In this document: piece after piece, positions 6,352 to 13,512 of the stretch
How the letters are laid out: every line of letters starts with the position of its first letter
Numbering within the stretch: position 1 is the stretch's first letter
NCBI GenBank assembly: GCA_947492135.1
Contig: CANLQR010000009.1
Coordinates: forward strand, 1 to 38,920
Source of the DNA: Deltaproteobacteria bacterium
GTDB taxonomy: Bacteria > Myxococcota_A > Polyangia > Nannocystales > Nannocystaceae
Direction of reading: 5' to 3'
Length of the DNA stretch: 38,920 bases
Notes under the pieces: generated by a model
Database searches by the model: none
Told to the model about the DNA's origin: nothing
Seen by the model: the letters and a program-made list of their open reading frames with translations, nothing else
Program-made: the position numbers and the translations under genes

Positions 6352-6390
6352 CGACGCCCGGGCGCGGTGCGCCTGGGTTGCAACCCGTGG

Positions 6391-7071
6391 ATGCTCGGTC
6401 AAGCTCTGCTCGTGCTCCACAAGAAGCTGGTCATCGGCGGTGTGCTCGGGTTCCTCGGTCTGGCCGCGACCGTCGGCCCCGCAGCGGCAGCCCGCGCCAT
6501 CGAAGAGCCCGCCTATGTGCTCGTGGAGAAATTCGAGGGCTTCGAGGTGAGAGAGTACGCCAAGCGGGTGGTTGCGCAGACTCGGGTCCGCGCGGAGTCC
6601 CGCGAAGCCTCGTCCGCGGGCTTCAAGATCCTCGCGGGCTACATTTTTGGCGGCAACCGCAGCCAAGCCTCGATCGCGATGACGGCCCCGGTCGGTCAAG
6701 AACGAGCCAGCGAAAAGATCGCAATGACCGCTCCGGTCGGCCAACGTCGGGACGCGGACGAGTGGATCGTCACGTTCACGATGCCGGGCACGTACACCCT
6801 CGAGACGCTGCCCGAGCCGCTGGATGCCCGCGTGGAGCTACGCGAGACGCCGGCACGACGAGTCGCGGTGTGGCGGTTCTCGGGCAATCCGCGGCCGGAG
6901 ATCGTGGAGGAACGCAAGCGCGTGCTCGTGGAGCGCGTCGTCGCCCAGGGCTTGGTCGCTGTAGGCGAGCCGGAGTACGCCCGCTACGACCCACCTTGGG
7001 TGCTGCCGCTGTTGCGGCGCAACGAGCTATGGGTCGAGCTCGGCGAGCCCGTGGCAGCACCGGCGGGCTGA
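6391..7071 (+). CDS. SOUL family haem-binding protein
   Basis: Predicted haem-binding protein of the SOUL/HBP family, 226 aa from ATG 6391; a GTG at 6367 would add eight residues. An N-terminal hydrophobic segment (about 14-32, LVIGGVLGFLGLAATVGPA) suggests export or membrane anchoring. The SOUL core follows: YVLVEKFEGFEVREYAKRVV, then the paired IAMTAPV motifs (IAMTAPVGQERASEKIAMTAPVG) and an RRVAVWRFSGNP segment. The length suits bacterial SOUL proteins. The sequence just after its 3' end (7061-7245) is repeated at 10720, where it leads into the lipoprotein hydrolase. The original neighbour order was therefore probably SOUL then hydrolase. Confidence 0.85.
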   Translation: MLGQALLVLHKKLVIGGVLGFLGLAATVGPAAAARAIEEPAYVLVEKFEGFEVREYAKRVVAQTRVRAESREASSAGFKILAGYIFGGNRSQASIAMTAPVGQERASEKIAMTAPVGQRRDADEWIVTFTMPGTYTLETLPEPLDARVELRETPARRVAVWRFSGNPRPEIVEERKRVLVERVVAQGLVAVGEPEYARYDPPWVLPLLRRNELWVELGEPVAAPAG

Positions 7072-7245
7072 CGCCGCGAACCGTGGTCGAGCTTGCTACG
7101 TTGCCCCGGATGCTCCGCGCCTTGCTGACCGCGCTGTGTCTGGCGCTTGGCTGCTCTGACCCGCCGAGCCCACGGTCGACGCGCCCGAGCAGCGCTGGCT
7201 GGGGCGCGTCATGATTCCCAACGCCCCCCCGCTGGTCGTCGCACT
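7061..7245 (+). pseudogene. Truncated, frameshifted duplicate of the 5' end of the lipoprotein hydrolase gene
   Basis: This stretch aligns closely with 10720-10999: the intergenic leader, then ATG (7110) and a signal peptide MLRALLTALCLALGC matching MLRASLTALCLVLGC of the intact gene at 10769. After PPSP the left copy lacks about 95 nt, which is not a multiple of three, so its frame breaks and stops at 7212-7214. Homology resumes in another frame (VDAPEQRWLGRV, then PNAPPLVVAL) and ends near 7245, where unrelated DNA begins. It is a dead remnant that marks the left edge of the inserted segment. Confidence 0.88.
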
Positions 7246-7434
7246 GCGAGCAAACGTACGCGGAACAACGGTAGTTCTGCTCGTCCGGATCTGTGCGGGG
7301 GGCGCCCGGCAACGGGCGTCCCTACCGCGATCGCGGTTCTCGCCACCTTGCTCGGCGCCGCCTTGTTTGGCGTCTTGGCCGCGATCGTCCCTGGCGATGC
7401 CGAGCGTGTCCGCGAGTTCGTCGAGTCGCCGCAA
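7246..7434. other. Non-coding junction of the inserted segment
   Basis: No convincing gene. A plus-frame stretch resembles a TM helix (AVLATLLGAALFGVLAAIV) and the minus frame reads a Gly/Arg/Asp-rich shadow; neither has a credible start. It contains the left copy of a 13-bp direct repeat at 7256-7268 and lies downstream of the minus-strand operon. Confidence 0.4.
7256..7268 (+). repeat. 13-bp direct repeat, left copy
   Basis: GTACGCGGAACAA, identical to 10540-10552 in the same orientation. It lies about 10 nt inside the point where homology to the hydrolase gene stops. Candidate boundary of the inserted segment. Confidence 0.55.
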
Positions 7435-7911
7435 CTACAACGGGAAACACTGCACCTGCCAGAAACAACTCAACGACCCCACGCCGCGAAGCGGCGGGGG
7501 GGCTTCCCACGGTGGCTCGCCCGGCTCGCCCGGCTCGCCCGCCCTGCCGCCCAGAGACTCGGCGCGCTCCGCATCGCCAAGGACGCAACCCACAAGAACG
7601 CTCTGTTGCGGGATGTCTAGCAGGCCACACAACTCCTCGCAGACGCTCGTTTCAATCTCCCCGGTTTCCTTGTCGTCTGGGATGGCTTCCTTGGGAACAC
7701 GCCGCGGCTCGGATACGAACGGTTGGCACTCCGCGACAGCCACCGTCTCAGTCTCGTTTGCATCGCTATCTGGATCTGGTGACTGCACCACACATCCATT
7801 GGCCATTGCCGCGCCCGCCATTGCCGCGCCTCGCGCGTGACCGAGCCAATACTGCAGCAGCCGACACGGTTGGTTCGAAGACGCGGCGTTCTTGTAGTTC
7901 TCAGTCATCAT
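7435..7911 (-). CDS. Unknown protein, 158 aa, Cys-containing with GEP repeats
   Basis: Not recognised. It starts at ATG 7911 (or ATG 7908), overlapping the stop of the upstream 359-aa ORF (ATGATGACTGA), so it is probably translated by coupling. The N-terminal third is Ala/Gly/Met-rich (HARGAAMAGAAMANGC). The middle is acidic, then comes a Cys cluster (CEELCG, then VLVGC). Near the C-terminus is a collagen-like GEPGEPGEP from a 9-nt tandem repeat, and the protein ends with two more Cys. There is no clear signal peptide. It is the last gene of the minus-strand operon. The final 30 residues overlap simple-sequence DNA, so the true end could differ. Confidence 0.55.
   Translation of the reverse strand: MMTENYKNAASSNQPCRLLQYWLGHARGAAMAGAAMANGCVVQSPDPDSDANETETVAVAECQPFVSEPRRVPKEAIPDDKETGEIETSVCEELCGLLDIPQQSVLVGCVLGDAERAESLGGRAGEPGEPGEPPWEAPPPLRGVGSLSCFWQVQCFPL
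7514..7540 (+). repeat. Three tandem copies of a 9-nt unit
   Basis: GGCTCGCCC occurs three times in a row, encoding GEPGEPGEP on the minus strand within the 158-aa unknown protein. Confidence 0.9.
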
Positions 7912-8980
7912 CGGGCGTAGGCGGAGGCTCAAGCCATTGGAAACCGTCTGGAAGCAGGCCATCTTCGTTGAGCTGGGCCATCGAACGGGTATCCTGAAAA
8001 ATGTCGAACCCATCGTTCGGCCGCCGGAAGTGGATGAAGTATCTGTGCTGCCCGCCCTCTCCCCGCATGCGAACGTCAACCCCAACAAACTGTTGCGCAT
8101 TGCCGAAAAGCAAGTGCCATGGGATCGGCACAACTGCGGGTAGAAGTTGTCCAGCGGGCGGAGGGGGGAAGGGCACCCAGAATGTCTGCGAGAACCCCAT
8201 CCAATGTCCCTGCGGGATTACGGTGTCAACAACAGTCTGCCACCCGAGAATCGGTTCGTAGTATTCGACCTTCCACTCGGTATCGCCAACGCAGGCGACG
8301 CAAGAGGCATAGTAGGCTGCACAGCGATACCCGGTTTGGCCACCAGCCGACAGAAGATGCCACGCTTTCCAGGTGCCTCCGCCATGAAAGTGATCAGTCT
8401 CAGTCGTGAACGCGATCTGTGCCGGCATGCCCCGCCACGCCGCTTGGCGGACTCGCAGCTTGGAATGGTTGATCCACTTCGCGACCATCGATTGGTCGCC
8501 GACCTCACAGTATGATGGCTCGGGGTTCTTGAGATGGTCGGGCCCCGCCTGGGTCGCGACGGACGCGGAGAGGGCCGCACCGGCGGCACCGGGTGCAGCG
8601 TACTGGTATGGTGGCGGCAGTGAGTAGAGGTCCTGAATGTCGCCAGAGGGCGGTACGAAGGGCGGGCCGGAAGGCGTCGGCTTCCGGCGCCGAGGCTTCC
8701 GGGCTTCGTAAGCCGCGACGTCGAAGATGACGCCGTCCAGCGGCGCAGCTGCTGCGGCCTGGCTGTCGCCCTCGAGACTGCCGAAGGAGTAGACCGCGCG
8801 TGTCGACAACGCTGGCCGCGTCACGAGCCCGCGAGCGATCAACTCAGAAGGGTGCAGGGGCGCCGTGTCGCGATTGCCCGCCCGCTGCTCCTCGCAGCAT
8901 TCACGACGGAGGTCCGGCAGCCGAATGTTCGCTGCGCGTATCGCCGCCTCCAGCGCCTCGCGGTCACGACGGGCGACCAT
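7901..8980 (-). CDS. Unknown protein, 359 aa, Pro-rich centre and Trp/Tyr-rich C-terminal domain
   Basis: No family recognised. From ATG 8980 the first 45 residues form a helix-like charged region (REALEAAIRAANIRLPDLRR). Next is a variable Ala/Pro-rich section (RRRKPTPSGPPFVPPSG, then SLPPPYQYAAPG). From about residue 150 there is a compact domain rich in Trp, Tyr, His and Cys (MVAKWINHSKLRVRQAAW, TETDHFHGGGTWKAWH, CAAYYASCVACVGD), probably beta-rich. No signal peptide or TM helix is evident. The start may be wrong: the upstream small ORF overlaps it by 17 nt, and joining the two by one base in a CCC run (8971-8973) would give a protein of about 409 aa with a far better ribosome site. It probably overlaps the next gene by 11 nt. 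Confidence 0.65.
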   Translation of the reverse strand: MVARRDREALEAAIRAANIRLPDLRRECCEEQRAGNRDTAPLHPSELIARGLVTRPALSTRAVYSFGSLEGDSQAAAAAPLDGVIFDVAAYEARKPRRRKPTPSGPPFVPPSGDIQDLYSLPPPYQYAAPGAAGAALSASVATQAGPDHLKNPEPSYCEVGDQSMVAKWINHSKLRVRQAAWRGMPAQIAFTTETDHFHGGGTWKAWHLLSAGGQTGYRCAAYYASCVACVGDTEWKVEYYEPILGWQTVVDTVIPQGHWMGFSQTFWVPFPPPPAGQLLPAVVPIPWHLLFGNAQQFVGVDVRMRGEGGQHRYFIHFRRPNDGFDIFQDTRSMAQLNEDGLLPDGFQWLEPPPTPDDD

Positions 8981-9134
8981 ACAGTACCCCGCTGAGCTCC
9001 GCGTAGCCCCGCGTCGCCGTGCCCGTCGCCTGCGTCGGCGACGCGGGCGCCATAGGCGTGCGTCCTCTGACTCCAGTTGGCGTTGACAACTCGTGCAGGT
9101 AGACCTCGAATGGACGTCGTTGCTTGCTCAACAT
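8964..9134 (-). CDS. Small ORF, 56 aa, or frameshifted N-terminus of the 359-aa protein
   Basis: ATG 9134 has an excellent Shine-Dalgarno site (GGGAGG, 9141-9146, 6 nt away) and reads MLSKQRRPFEVYLHELSTPT to a TGA at 8964-8966. Composition is coding-like, whereas the alternative frame here is a run of arginines. The end, ELSGVLYGRPS, reads naturally into REALEAAIRAANIRLP of the 359-aa ORF if one C is removed at 8971-8973. It is therefore either a coupled small gene or the real N-terminus of the downstream protein split by an indel. Confidence 0.6.
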   Translation of the reverse strand: MLSKQRRPFEVYLHELSTPTGVRGRTPMAPASPTQATGTATRGYAELSGVLYGRPS

Positions 9135-9140
9135 CGCATA

Positions 9141-9146
9141 CCTCCC
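9141..9146 (-). promoter_or_regulatory. Strong ribosome binding site for the small ORF at 9134
   Basis: GGGAGG on the minus strand, 6 nt before ATG 9134. This is the clearest ribosome site between the 152-aa and 359-aa ORFs, and it decides that translation of this part starts at 9134 rather than at 8980. Confidence 0.7.
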
Positions 9147-9249
9147 AGCCTTCTCTTGGCGTCATGTCGGAGCCCGTTGCCCGAACCCCTTGCATCCTCA
9201 GGTCTCACGAGGTCGCGGAGCTTGTACCCGCACCATCTCTCCCATCCAC

Positions 9250-9681
9250 TCACCCGCTCATCCTCATGATGAGGTCGAAACTGACCACGATGTACAGGCT
9301 GCCGGTCGCGGTTGGCCCGGTGGCCTTGAGCACGACCCGCACCATGGGGTGTTGCAAGTCGCTGATGATCGTCGACAGTTGCATCAAACCTGGCACCGTC
9401 GTCGGATTTGAGGTCCCGGTCGTGGCCAGGGTACTGCCGAGGTCGGTCGCCCAGACGAAATCGACGCCGTCGTCCTTGGACGGGTTGATCCCCCGGATGA
9501 TGATCTGGTACAAGCCGCCGGAGCTGATGTTGCGCCTGTGGACGCGCAGAGAGCCGCCGATCTTCGCGAACGGTGCGGCCGGAACGCGATCGGCCAGGAT
9601 CACCTCCTCGCTCGCGCCCGGCGCGAGGAAGCTGTGGTTGTACACGGCGTACTGACAGATGGGGACGACGATTCCACTCAT
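9250..9681 (-). CDS. Unknown beta-rich protein, 143-152 aa
   Basis: Not recognised. ATG 9681 begins MSGIVVPICQYAVYNHSFL; ATG 9708, nine codons earlier, is equally possible. The sequence alternates hydrophobic and polar residues (GLYQIIIRGINP, MVRVVLKATGP, GSLYIVVSFDLIMRM) and looks like a small beta-sandwich, without signal peptide or TM helix. It is in the same frame as, and just downstream of, the regulator gene. Neither start has a good ribosome site. The strong site nearby (9742-9748) serves ATG 9736 in another frame, whose first 20 residues (MTGEIRFDVDAPRPYRHV) also look coding. This gene may therefore be frameshifted near 9670-9690. Confidence 0.65.
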   Translation of the reverse strand: MSGIVVPICQYAVYNHSFLAPGASEEVILADRVPAAPFAKIGGSLRVHRRNISSGGLYQIIIRGINPSKDDGVDFVWATDLGSTLATTGTSNPTTVPGLMQLSTIISDLQHPMVRVVLKATGPTATGSLYIVVSFDLIMRMSG

Positions 9682-9732
9682 GCACGTGTCTATACGGGCG
9701 TGGCGCATCGACGTCGAACCGAATCTCGCCCG

Positions 9733-10479
9733 TCATTTTGACCCCCTCGGTTTGGACCCGTCGGTTCGGAGGGGCTGGGGCGCCTGGGGCGCCTCGGTGA
9801 TCTCGCCGATGCGTGCAGCGAGCCCCGCGTCGCCGAGCACGTCCGCGAGCACGGGTACGAGGTCGCCGGCGAGTTCGCGAAGCAAGTCGCGTGCACCCTC
9901 GTCGAGTGAGCGCCAGCCGAGTCGCTCTTGCGCCTCCGACAGGTAGCTGCGAACCGAACTCTCCTGGATCGACAGCGCGAGCGACATCTCCTTGTAGGTC
10001 AGGCCCAGGAAGCGCATCACCGTGACGGCGCGGTGTTGTCGCGTCAGCGCGCGAAACCCAGTCGCAGACAGCACCTGCTGCAACGCCGTGACCACCTCGG
10101 CGTGTCTGCGCCGTTCGTCTCCGCGTCCCGTTCCCTTCCGCGCCGCGCTGAGAACGCGAAGGGTATCGTGCGGGGGACCGATCACGACCGCGTCGGACAC
10201 GACGTCCTCGACCGCGTCCGGCTGCGGCGATAGGACGACCATCACAGCGCCAGGCGAATGAGCGCGCAGCAGCGCCAACGACGGACTGACCGGATCGGTC
10301 GCGTCACGTGCGTCCACGATCGCGGCGTCGAGCCTCTGCGACGAGGCGGCAAGGCGTCGCTGCAGTGCCGCATCATCGCGGGCAACCGCAACCCAACCTC
10401 CGCTGACCTCGAGGTCTTCGACGCACGCGGTCCTCAGCGCGTTGCAGTCCCCGACCCAAACCACGTGAAGCCCGTCCAT
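9733..10479 (-). CDS. LuxR-type HTH regulator with receiver-like N-terminal domain
   Basis: DNA-binding regulator of 248 aa. Residues 1-120 resemble a receiver fold (GLHVVWVGDCNALR, DAAIVDARDA, GAVMVVLSPQPDAVEDV). A possible phosphoacceptor Asp sits in AAIVDARD, but the acidic pocket is poor, so phosphorylation is doubtful. A GerE/LuxR-like helix-turn-helix follows in the second half: LTRQHRAVTVMRFLGLTYKE, then MSLALSIQESSVRSYLSEA. The start ATG 10479 is preceded by GGAGGA, 5 nt upstream. It is the first gene of the minus-strand operon in the insert and likely controls it. Its stop overlaps ATG 9736 (ATGA). Confidence 0.8.
   Translation of the reverse strand: MDGLHVVWVGDCNALRTACVEDLEVSGGWVAVARDDAALQRRLAASSQRLDAAIVDARDATDPVSPSLALLRAHSPGAVMVVLSPQPDAVEDVVSDAVVIGPPHDTLRVLSAARKGTGRGDERRRHAEVVTALQQVLSATGFRALTRQHRAVTVMRFLGLTYKEMSLALSIQESSVRSYLSEAQERLGWRSLDEGARDLLRELAGDLVPVLADVLGDAGLAARIGEITEAPQAPQPLRTDGSKPRGSK
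9742..9748 (-). promoter_or_regulatory. Strong ribosome site before ATG 9736
   Basis: GAGGGGG on the minus strand, 5 nt before ATG 9736, which itself overlaps the regulator stop (ATGA). The frame it opens begins MTGEIRFDVDAPRPYRHV but soon turns Arg-rich, whereas the plausible downstream protein is in another frame. Confidence 0.6.
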
Positions 10480-10484
10480 GGCAT

Positions 10485-10490
10485 TCCTCC
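10485..10490 (-). promoter_or_regulatory. Ribosome binding site of the LuxR-type regulator
   Basis: GGAGGA, 5 nt upstream of ATG 10479 on the minus strand. It excludes the longer in-frame extension reading back towards 10641. Confidence 0.75.
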
Positions 10491-10539
10491 GACGACAGCC
10501 TACGTCAGGATGGAGGGGGGGGCAACCAGTTCGCCCAAT

Positions 10540-10552
10540 GTACGCGGAACAA
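10540..10552 (+). repeat. 13-bp direct repeat, right copy
   Basis: GTACGCGGAACAA, identical in sequence and orientation to 7256-7268. Flanking bases differ apart from a loose AA upstream. Confidence 0.55.
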
Positions 10553-10768
10553 TGTCCAGCGGGAACTCGCGACGACATTGGCCGCAAGATCGCTCGGCCC
10601 GGACACAACGCCCGCACTGTCGGCACCTCTGCATCGCGCATCGCCGCCGCCGGCAGCGCGAGGAAGTCGAGGAAGCACGGTGCCGCACGGTGCCGAACGA
10701 GAGGCGCTCAGCACCGAACCGGCGGGCTAACGCCGCGAACCGGAGTCGAACTTGCTACGTTGCCCCGG

Positions 10769-12328
10769 ATGCTCCGCGCCTCGCTGACCGCGCTGTGTCT
10801 GGTGCTTGGCTGCTCCGACCCGCCGAGCCCACCGCCGACGACGGCAGCCGACGCGAGCCCAGCACCGACACCGATCGACGTCACCGCGCCAGTGAGCGAG
10901 GCGCGACCCGCAGCCCCTGCGCCCACGGTCGACGCGCCCGAGCAGCACTGGCTTGGGCGCGTCACGATTCCCAACGCACCTGCGCTGGTCGTCGAACTGA
11001 AGTTCGATCCCGACGTCATCGCTGCTGCGACCCTCGCCATCCCCGCGCAGAAGGTGCCGCCGACAGCACTGGTCGACGTCGCGATCAGCCCGACGTCGAT
11101 GGCGTTCACGCTGCCGATCCCCGGTGCCGATGATCGTGGCCAGGCGAGGTTCACGGTGGCGTTGGTCGAGGGGTCGGACACCGCCACCGGCACGCTCGTG
11201 CAGGCGGGGCTCACGATGCCGCTGACCATGCGTCGCATGGCCCAAGGCGAGACGCTCGCCGAGGCCCTGCGCCCGCAGACACCCAAGCCGCCATTTCCGT
11301 ATGCCCTGCGCGACGCCGTGTACACGAGTGCCGATGGGACGACGCTGGCGGGGACGATGACGCTGCCCAGTACACCTGGCAAGCATCCCGCCGTCGTGCT
11401 GATCAGCGGTACGGGCGAGCAGGATCGCGACATGACGCTGGGCGATCACCGATTCTTCGCCGTCGTCGCGGACCACCTGACGCGCGCCGGCATCGCGGTG
11501 TTGCGGGTCGACGATCGTGGCGTCGGCGGATCGGGCGGAAACACCAGCGAGACCGGCTTCGACGGCAAGGTCGAGGACGTCGTGGCGGGCATGGCCTGGC
11601 TTGCCGTGCAGCCCGAGATCGACGCCGCGCGTGTGGGGCTGGTCGGTCACAGCGAGGGCGGCTTGATCGGACCGCTGGTCGCCGTGCGTGCGCGACCCCC
11701 TGCGATCCCGGTGGCATTTCTCGTACTGCTCGCCGCGCCGGGGGTCCCGACCGCGGAGCTGATGATCACTCAGATGGATCAGACCCTTCGCGCGCAGCGA
11801 GTGTCGGCGGAGCGCCTCGCCGTCGGCAACGCCGGACAGCAGCGAGTCCTCGAGGCGGTGTTGAGCGGCGCCGACGATGCCGCGCTACGCGTGATCGTCA
11901 CCGAGCAGCTCGACGCCATCTTCGCGCTGACACCCGACAACAAGCCCGGCTTTCTCGGCCGTCGTGCGCAGATCGAAAGCGCACTACTCCAGGTCGCGAC
12001 CCCAGCGATGCGCGACTTCATCCGCGCCGAGCCAGGCCCGACGCTCGCGCAAGTCCGCTGCCCGGTGATCGCCATGGGCGGAACCATGGACCTGCAGGTC
12101 GACGGCGAGACCAACCTCGCGGCGATCCGGGCCGCGCTCGAGCGCGGCAAGAACCCCGACATCACCACGGTCCTGGTGCCCGGTCGCAATCATCTGTTCC
12201 AGCCGGCCGCGATCGGTACCCCCGAGGAGTGGGCCTCGATCGACACGACCATCGACCCGGCAGTGCTTGCCCAGATCTCCGACTGGGTGCGGGTGCGGGC
12301 TGCGGTGGATCATGCGAGCGCGCAGTAG
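10769..12328 (+). CDS. Lipoprotein alpha/beta hydrolase (serine esterase/peptidase S33-like)
   Basis: Predicted lipid-anchored serine hydrolase of 519 aa. Lipobox VLGC gives lipidated C15, followed by a Pro/Ala-rich linker to about 55. An N-terminal beta domain (about 60-165) precedes the alpha/beta-hydrolase core. The oxyanion-region motif is LISGTGEQDRD, then VLRVDDRGVGGSGG. The nucleophile elbow is GHSEGG (293-298, S295), the likely acid is D441 in GGTMDLQVD, and the catalytic His is H475 in PGRNHLF. The acyl substrate is not deducible. A broken copy of its 5' end lies 3.5 kb upstream, so the gene was partly duplicated around the inserted module. The start is set by the signal peptide and by conservation of this ATG in both copies. 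Confidence 0.88.
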   Translation: MLRASLTALCLVLGCSDPPSPPPTTAADASPAPTPIDVTAPVSEARPAAPAPTVDAPEQHWLGRVTIPNAPALVVELKFDPDVIAAATLAIPAQKVPPTALVDVAISPTSMAFTLPIPGADDRGQARFTVALVEGSDTATGTLVQAGLTMPLTMRRMAQGETLAEALRPQTPKPPFPYALRDAVYTSADGTTLAGTMTLPSTPGKHPAVVLISGTGEQDRDMTLGDHRFFAVVADHLTRAGIAVLRVDDRGVGGSGGNTSETGFDGKVEDVVAGMAWLAVQPEIDAARVGLVGHSEGGLIGPLVAVRARPPAIPVAFLVLLAAPGVPTAELMITQMDQTLRAQRVSAERLAVGNAGQQRVLEAVLSGADDAALRVIVTEQLDAIFALTPDNKPGFLGRRAQIESALLQVATPAMRDFIRAEPGPTLAQVRCPVIAMGGTMDLQVDGETNLAAIRAALERGKNPDITTVLVPGRNHLFQPAAIGTPEEWASIDTTIDPAVLAQISDWVRVRAAVDHASAQ

Positions 12329-12351: not shown

Positions 12352-13512
12352 CTAGCCAAAGCGGCGCTCGCGAACGAGCAGCTCCAGGTCCCGTAGCGCG
12401 AGCGAAGAAATTCCATCGCCCAGCGGGAGACTGCGCTCGCCGGGGTGCACGACCCAGAGATGTTCGAGCTGCAGATCCTGCTGCGCCACCCGCATCGACT
12501 TGGTGATGGTCGGCGTGTCACCGTACTTGGCCTCGAAGCCGAACCGCCGCGACCCGCGAACGATCAGCAGGTCGAGTTCCGCCCCCGCATGCGTGCGATA
12601 GAAGAACGCGTCGCGTTCTGCCGACAGCCGCCGGATCACTTGGTCGACCACCAAGCCCTCCCACGACGCCCCCAGCCCGGGATGCGCGAGCAGGCCGAGC
12701 CGGTCACGGATCCCGAGGAAGTAGTGCAGCAGCCCCGAGTCCCGCACGTAGACCTTCGGTGCCTTGACCAGGCGCTTGCCGACGTTCGCTGCCCATGGCG
12801 CGAGCTGTCGCACGACGAACGCTCCGGTGAGCACATCGACGTGGTGACGGACGGCGGCCTCGCCCGTGCCCATCGATCGGGCAAGCTCGGCGGCGTTCCA
12901 GATCCCCCCGTGGTGATGCGCCAGCATGGTCCAGAATCGGCGCAGTGCCGCCGCGGGGACCCGGACCCCGAGCTGGGGCAGATCGCGCTCGAGAAAGCTC
13001 TGCACGAAATCACCACGCCAGGCGAAGCTGTCGCGCTCCGAGCGGGCGAGAAACGACCGCGGGAATCCCCCCCGTAGCCAAAGCGCCGACTGTCGAGCGG
13101 CAGGCACCTCGCTCAGATCAAAGCCCGCCATTTCGCAGTGGGTCACACGGCCGGCGAGCGTCTCTGCGGCGCCGCGAACCAGCAACGGCGAGGCGCTGCC
13201 CAGCAGCAGGAATCGAGCCGGGGTCGGCCGCCGATCGGCAAGCACCCGCAGCAGCGGCAACAGAGCAGGTTCACGCTGGCACTCGTCGATCACGACCAGG
13301 CCGCGTAGTGGCGCGAGGACCTGTTTGGCGACGTCGGCTCGCAGGGGCGTCTCGGGATCTTCGAGATCGAACCACGTGCACCGACGGTTGGCCGCGGCGA
13401 TGGTTCGGGCTAGCGTGGTCTTGCCGCACTGCCTGGGCCCGAGAAGCACTGTCACGGGTGCGCGACGCAGTGCGCGCTGCAGCTCGGCGAGGAGGTTGTC
13501 CCGAGGGAACAC
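12352..13512 (-). CDS. AAA ATPase with C-terminal DUF4143/nuclease-like domain
   Basis: P-loop ATPase of 386 aa from the widespread ATP-binding/DUF4143 family, whose cellular role is poorly known. Walker A is GPRQCGKTT (25-33) and Walker B is GLVVIDE (71-77, D76/E77). A sensor-type LLLGSAS follows, then a winged-helix-like middle (SMGTGEAAVRHHVDVLTGAF). The C-terminal domain carries E312-L-D314 and FEAK (K329), which resembles a PD-(D/E)xK core. The start is GTG 13512, preceded directly by AAGGAA; no ATG is available in frame before an upstream stop. The gene stands alone, converging on the hydrolase gene with a 23-nt gap. No toxin, antitoxin or transposase partner is adjacent. Confidence 0.87.
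   Translation of the reverse strand: MFPRDNLLAELQRALRRAPVTVLLGPRQCGKTTLARTIAAANRRCTWFDLEDPETPLRADVAKQVLAPLRGLVVIDECQREPALLPLLRVLADRRPTPARFLLLGSASPLLVRGAAETLAGRVTHCEMAGFDLSEVPAARQSALWLRGGFPRSFLARSERDSFAWRGDFVQSFLERDLPQLGVRVPAAALRRFWTMLAHHHGGIWNAAELARSMGTGEAAVRHHVDVLTGAFVVRQLAPWAANVGKRLVKAPKVYVRDSGLLHYFLGIRDRLGLLAHPGLGASWEGLVVDQVIRRLSAERDAFFYRTHAGAELDLLIVRGSRRFGFEAKYGDTPTITKSMRVAQQDLQLEHLWVVHPGERSLPLGDGISSLALRDLELLVRERRFG

Follow-up and report, generated by a model that had tools for sequence, protein, structure and literature searches.

An operon between two copies of a SOUL/hydrolase junction in a Nannocystaceae genome, and its likely place in a dispersed family of jelly-roll gene cassettes

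The stretch of DNA considered here (the window) comprises 38,920 nucleotides (nt) of a Deltaproteobacteria bacterium of the Nannocystaceae (GenBank assembly GCA_947492135.1, contig CANLQR010000009.1, positions 1 to 38,920 of the forward strand). We describe a minus-strand operon at 7247-10717 that lies between a broken and an intact copy of the same gene junction, together with the family of small, predicted jelly-roll proteins to which the second gene of the operon almost certainly belongs.

A duplicated gene junction

The genes and repeats that flank the operon are as follows.

6367-7071, plus strand: SOUL haem-binding family protein (Pfam SOUL, E = 4.7e-45)
7060-7246, plus strand: left, broken copy of the junction, with the SOUL stop region and the hydrolase 5′ end; 95 nt missing, a frameshifted remnant
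10719-10999, plus strand: right, intact copy of the junction, with a SOUL tail remnant and the leader and N-terminus of the hydrolase
10769-12328, plus strand: intact lipoprotein alpha/beta hydrolase (Peptidase_S15 and Hydrolase_4 matches)

A reading made from the sequence alone had proposed that the ends of the operon are near-identical apart from a 95-nt deletion on the left, and that both carry the start of the lipoprotein hydrolase. Alignment of the two regions (7061-7245 and 10720-10999) bears this out: as direct copies, 7059-7181 matches 10718-10840 at 93% identity and 7161-7246 matches 10914-10999 at 88%. In the left copy 95 nt are missing and the frame is shifted; in each copy GCCCAC bounds the site of the missing stretch, as expected of a deletion by slippage. 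The repeat additionally takes in the final codons of the SOUL gene with its stop, CCGGCGGGCTGA at 7060-7071 and CCGGCGGGCTAA upstream of the intact hydrolase, and the duplicated unit therefore spans the old SOUL/hydrolase junction. Because each copy holds a SOUL end and a hydrolase start, the two genes, now 3.47 kb apart, would formerly have been adjacent; the intact hydrolase is still preceded by a piece of SOUL.

The copies differ at 10 codons, 6 of them with a changed amino acid, as expected once one copy is no longer constrained. That they are not identical speaks against a simple assembly duplicate. The draft genome consists of 754 contigs, and this contig may be a chimera of strains. Homologues of the hydrolase occur in 35 of the 39 genomes searched, and the genus's three other genomes have best matches of only 41-43% identity.

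Contents and ends of the insert

Between the two copies lie the following features.

9733-10479, minus strand: regulator with a C-terminal sigma-r4/LuxR-like helix-turn-helix, 248 amino acids from the ATG at 10479 (Sigma70_r4_2, E = 2.4e-5)
9250-9681, minus strand: jelly-roll protein, 143 amino acids from the ATG at 9681 (152 from an upstream start), assigned by family profile and AlphaFold2 (AF2) model
8964-9134, minus strand: open reading frame (ORF) of 56 amino acids, MLSKQRRPFEVYLHEL..., overlapping the 359-amino-acid ORF by 17 nt; N-terminal motif common to genome G003 of the genus, looser in genome G002
7901-8980, minus strand: putative cargo protein, 359 amino acids, with a Pro-rich middle and a positive codon score
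7435-7911, minus strand: possible third protein, 158 amino acids, its start overlapping the cargo stop; the longer frame has a weak coding signal
7256-7268, plus strand: left 13-nt direct repeat, GTACGCGGAACAA, 9 nt inside the left break
10540-10552, plus strand: right 13-nt direct repeat, GTACGCGGAACAA, near the other end
7269-7334, no strand assigned: GC-rich palindromic genome repeat of 66 nt, a hairpin, beginning 22 nt past the broken copy

The minus-strand operon noted in the sequence-only reading is thus confirmed, and homologues of its second gene occur in related genomes. The helix-turn-helix of the regulator scores under the curated cut-offs (24.3 bits versus 25.7 for Sigma70_r4_2, 17.3 versus 23.5 for GerE), and a close homologue of the regulator is found only in G002 (37%), where gene order is conserved, with a jelly-roll homologue beside it. 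An ORF of 44 amino acids (10500-10634, minus strand) immediately upstream of the regulator has a zinc-ribbon-like CxxCGxC...CGQC pattern and overlaps the right 13-nt repeat.

The 56-amino-acid ORF begins RRPFEVYLHEL, and in G003 the ORF that first follows the jelly-roll gene begins RRPYEMSLGEL. A degenerate DNA pattern for this motif matches only these two sites among the four genomes of the genus; the looser version in G002 is RRREHEISLAEL. The small ORF may be a separate leader peptide, or else the cargo's true start, split off by a frameshift. No homologue of the 359-amino-acid protein was found in 38 relatives, plasmids or viral contigs.

The guanine-plus-cytosine (GC) content of the insert is 0.653, below all 281 segments of equal length elsewhere in the window (0.669-0.709). 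Composition and repeat arrays were also compared with a 1.6 Mb sample of the same genome, whose draft totals 8 Mb; here the insert falls within the lowest 3.7% of segments (mean 0.679, standard deviation 0.015), a value that is unusual, not extreme. Codon scores per codon are 0.11-0.14 for the cargo and regulator genes versus 0.19-0.33 for the neighbours, and the jelly-roll gene is normal at 0.215. The lower GC content that had been suspected is therefore genuine though modest, and the suggestion that a module entered at a duplicated hydrolase 5′ region and split the SOUL-hydrolase neighbourhood gains support from the SOUL tail in the right copy and from the deviating composition and codon usage.

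The 13-nt repeat GTACGCGGAACAA has exactly two occurrences in the 8 Mb draft, those at the two ends of the insert. Of 3000 simulated pairs of such end zones, one had a 13-nt match, but the chance of some 13-nt direct repeat at any place in 3.5 kb is 23%, so the meaning of the pair depends on its position. As end marks of the insert the two repeats are suggestive. Of the features of a site-specific island there are these unique direct repeats near both ends; neither an integrase in the insert nor a tRNA in the window was found. A Pfam scan of the operon's four main ORFs found no transposase, integrase or recombinase. The absence of a transposase, the lack of terminal inverted repeats at the insert ends and a flanking duplication of ~190-280 nt, far above the usual target-site duplication, together rule against a transposon or insertion sequence.

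A DNA search of the rest of the genome gave no second copy of the whole cassette; its only matches were the 66-nt repeat and short parts of jelly-roll paralogues. The 66-nt repeat has six further copies in the draft, 84-98% identical (L002-L007). A copy of it lies on contig C514, which carries a 52% identical paralogue (L069:263-1426) of an AAA_14/DUF4143 ATPase encoded at 12352-13512 of the window.

The jelly-roll family

The jelly-roll proteins form an unnamed family of ~140 amino acids in the Myxococcota. By profile search it is present in 9 of the bacterial family's 29 genomes, in 14 of the class's 290 and in 15 of the 379 genomes sampled from the phylum, among them genomes of another class. 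There are at least seven copies in the genome of the window and up to ten in G001. Two members are unusual: a homologue in G003 (C311, L056:3989-4414) has a TAG stop beside a short run of N and is either a gap artefact or a pseudogene, and a G001 locus (C189, L101:3683-5532) has four tandem jelly-roll domains, one of them inside a long repetitive open frame that resembles a fibre protein.

Pfam, NCBIfam and PHROG gave no convincing match to the family (no Pfam match better than E = 0.05 for any of 18 members), and a sequence-profile search of the PDB gave none. A phage origin lacks support, since no member occurs in viral contigs and no PHROG match is better than E = 0.01. The AF2 model, built from only 3 sequences, has eight strands, a predicted local distance difference test score (pLDDT) of 79.6 and a predicted template-modelling score of 0.78, and the predicted fold is a beta sandwich of jelly-roll topology. 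Among solved structures it is matched best by the projection (P) domain of birnavirus VP2 (Z score 11.3, 125 residues, root-mean-square deviation 2.9 Å); below this the matches level off near Z 8.8, with unrelated jelly rolls.

Partners of the jelly-roll genes

The genes that follow were surveyed for 29 jelly-roll copies with a codon-based ORF caller. In 27 of the 29, the next called ORF is on the same strand, mostly at most 270 nt away. The exceptions are G003:C299 and contig C116 of the window's genome; the latter is in fact followed by a trypsin-like gene that overlaps by one base and was missed by the codon filter. Domains among the next genes are Trypsin (three), Matrixin, Amidase_2 with PG_binding_1, Beta-lactamase (two), PLDc_2, a right-handed beta helix and a glycosyltransferase, and five further proteins without a good Pfam match have HExxH motifs. 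Small lipoprotein-like ORFs follow some of the cargos, none of them identifiable as immunity genes. The spacing suggests that jelly roll and partner are co-transcribed, and comparison across genomes shows a regular adjacency with a diversity of cargos.

A case of such modularity is provided by contigs C116 and C58 of the window's own genome. Here ~200 nt of upstream DNA are 94% identical, as is the whole jelly-roll gene at 96% (95% at the amino acid level), and the similarity ends ~11 nt past the jelly-roll gene, except for a 64-nt patch. The enzymes that follow, trypsin-like on C116 and a matrixin on C58, are unrelated except for ~50 similar N-terminal residues. Contig C74 has the same upstream and jelly-roll block at 84-86% and a third enzyme. 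These loci suggest a constant carrier with exchangeable cargo. The term accessory island, used in the sequence-only reading, was right for the window insert but incomplete, since its cargo would belong to a dispersed family of operons that join a jelly roll to an enzyme.

Perfect arrays of GTGCCGGCGA stand 15-20 nt before the start of paralogous jelly-roll genes, with 8.0 copies on C116 (L058:2861-2940), 11.1 on C74 (L109:9231-9341), 8.9 in G001 (L061:409-497) and two on C58 (L059:4892-4911); the copy number thus differs between paralogous loci (about 2, 8, 9 and 11). A TTGACA hexamer lies ahead of the array on C116 and C58. The window copy of the jelly-roll gene has no array, and the 1.6 Mb sample contains no GTGCCGGCGA array and only three perfect period-10 arrays of at least three copies, the longest with four. 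The arrays are candidate contingency repeats.

Discussion

We consider it likely that the operon at 7247-10717 entered as an accessory element at the SOUL/hydrolase junction in one event, which would have left a duplicated target of ~280 nt whose left copy decayed afterwards. The operon would be one member of a dispersed Myxococcota repertoire that consists of a conserved jelly-roll protein and an exchangeable cargo, usually a hydrolytic enzyme, and the 359-amino-acid protein is probably the cargo of the window copy. As to function, we put forward a tentative carrier mechanism. The jelly-roll protein may self-assemble and carry, display or protect the enzyme outside the cell, and the N-terminus of the cargo (a Cys-X-Cys or RRP-x-E motif with a Pro-rich linker) could be a docking or export signal. 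New cargos might arise by recombination downstream of the constant block. In the window copy, the linked helix-turn-helix regulator, rather than a repeat-array leader, would govern expression. Taken together as one statement of insertion, repertoire and carrier, this account is the one that we slightly favour.

Several observations weigh against it. A search of relatives for an empty site gave none, as no SOUL homologue was detected in the genus's three other genomes; nor was a recombinase that could have moved the cassette found in the insert. No enzyme domain can be recognised in the window cargo, and the model of its C-terminal domain reached a pLDDT of only 34, so its role as cargo rests on gene order. 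The next genes are not all hydrolases, given the glycosyltransferase in G098 and several proteins of no recognised type, including the window's own. The Cys-X-Cys motif speaks for the account, since 10 of 18 cargos have it within their first 130 residues versus 4 of 83 other proteins, but this background set is small and contains a few cargos. Finally, by simple hydropathy the jelly-roll proteins and most cargos have no obvious signal peptide.

There are three other ways to account for these operons. The jelly roll could be the structural repeat unit of a surface appendage, spike or tail-like structure, with the enzyme as its tip or a processing factor. Tandem gene copies in G001, G016 and G267, the G001 copy within a long repetitive open frame, and the Ena2A fibre subunit and Pgp3 trimer domain among the fold matches are all in keeping with this idea; jelly rolls are very common, however, and Ena2A at Z 8.8 is tied with unrelated proteins. 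Moreover, the phage sheath (Phage_sheath_1, PF04984), present in 14 of the bacterial family's 29 genomes, was not found in the four genomes of the genus (G000-G003; the window's own is 90% complete), which makes a contractile injection machine unlikely there. On balance we regard a fibre as unlikely.

It is less probable again that the locus reflects ordinary neighbourhood change, in which a small tandem duplication was followed by unrelated gene gain and the pairing of jelly roll and enzyme has no functional meaning. Tandem duplication alone would explain the repeats, and a GC content in the lowest 4% is not extreme. The insert nevertheless sits exactly between both copies, and the pairing with co-directional genes recurs across genera and classes.

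That the jelly-roll protein is an inhibitor or immunity protein keeping the neighbouring enzyme inactive inside the producer is improbable: its genes lie directly upstream of, and often overlap, the enzyme genes, and proteases are frequent among the cargos, but a specific inhibitor should co-vary with its enzyme, whereas jelly rolls 95% identical in amino acids adjoin enzymes of unrelated folds (trypsin-like and matrixin) and other members precede glycosyltransferase and PLD genes.

The proposed inserted cassette with its jelly-roll carrier can also be set beside known systems. The birnavirus VP2 P domain (PDB 2df7, 1wcd) has the same jelly-roll arrangement over 125 residues, but the identity is 14%, and the family has no S or base domain and is encoded by bacterial chromosomal genes paired with enzymes; on the strength of the model, the match is a likeness of fold, with no descent implied. 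Ena2A, the Bacillus endospore appendage subunit (PDB 9i0y), is likewise a small bacterial protein of one jelly-roll domain (104 residues at Z 8.8), but the operon partners here are enzymes, and the 18 members have no convincing Pfam match. Membership of the Ena/DUF3992 spore appendages was rejected, as there is no sequence match to that family model. Polymorphic toxin and effector systems share the exchangeable catalytic ends behind a conserved 5′ part, as on C116 and C58; they differ in that the constant part here is mainly a separate gene, the cargos are common hydrolases and no immunity gene was identified. Contingency loci have repeat arrays in a promoter or leader, for example at Haemophilus hmw. 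The jelly-roll genes are similar where a perfect array of short tandem repeats, its length varying from locus to locus, directly precedes them, but the unit is 10 nt and lies between a promoter-like site and the ribosome-binding site, the variation is seen between loci only, and the window copy has none.

A literature search found no paper describing the pairing of jelly roll and enzyme, which is weak evidence of absence. It is conceivable, if rather doubtful as a whole, that these operons are a previously undescribed repertoire for exo-enzyme delivery in the Myxococcota, with a constant jelly-roll carrier, exchangeable enzymes with a short cysteine-rich docking N-terminus, and partial control by a variable 10-nt array, the window holding a regulator-driven cassette version.

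Predatory bacteria are thought to depend on secreted enzymes. How enzymes might be exported and diversified without the usual signals is the question that an operon family with a constant carrier and exchangeable cargo would address. The analysis also brings to attention an unannotated protein family with up to ten copies per genome, and paralogues whose carriers are 95% identical but whose enzymes are unrelated offer a direct experimental handle. The window copy stands between two genes of a predatory-type soil bacterium, and we suggest that the whole set of operons, with one conserved shell-like protein and many different enzymes, deserves to be tested as a swappable arsenal.

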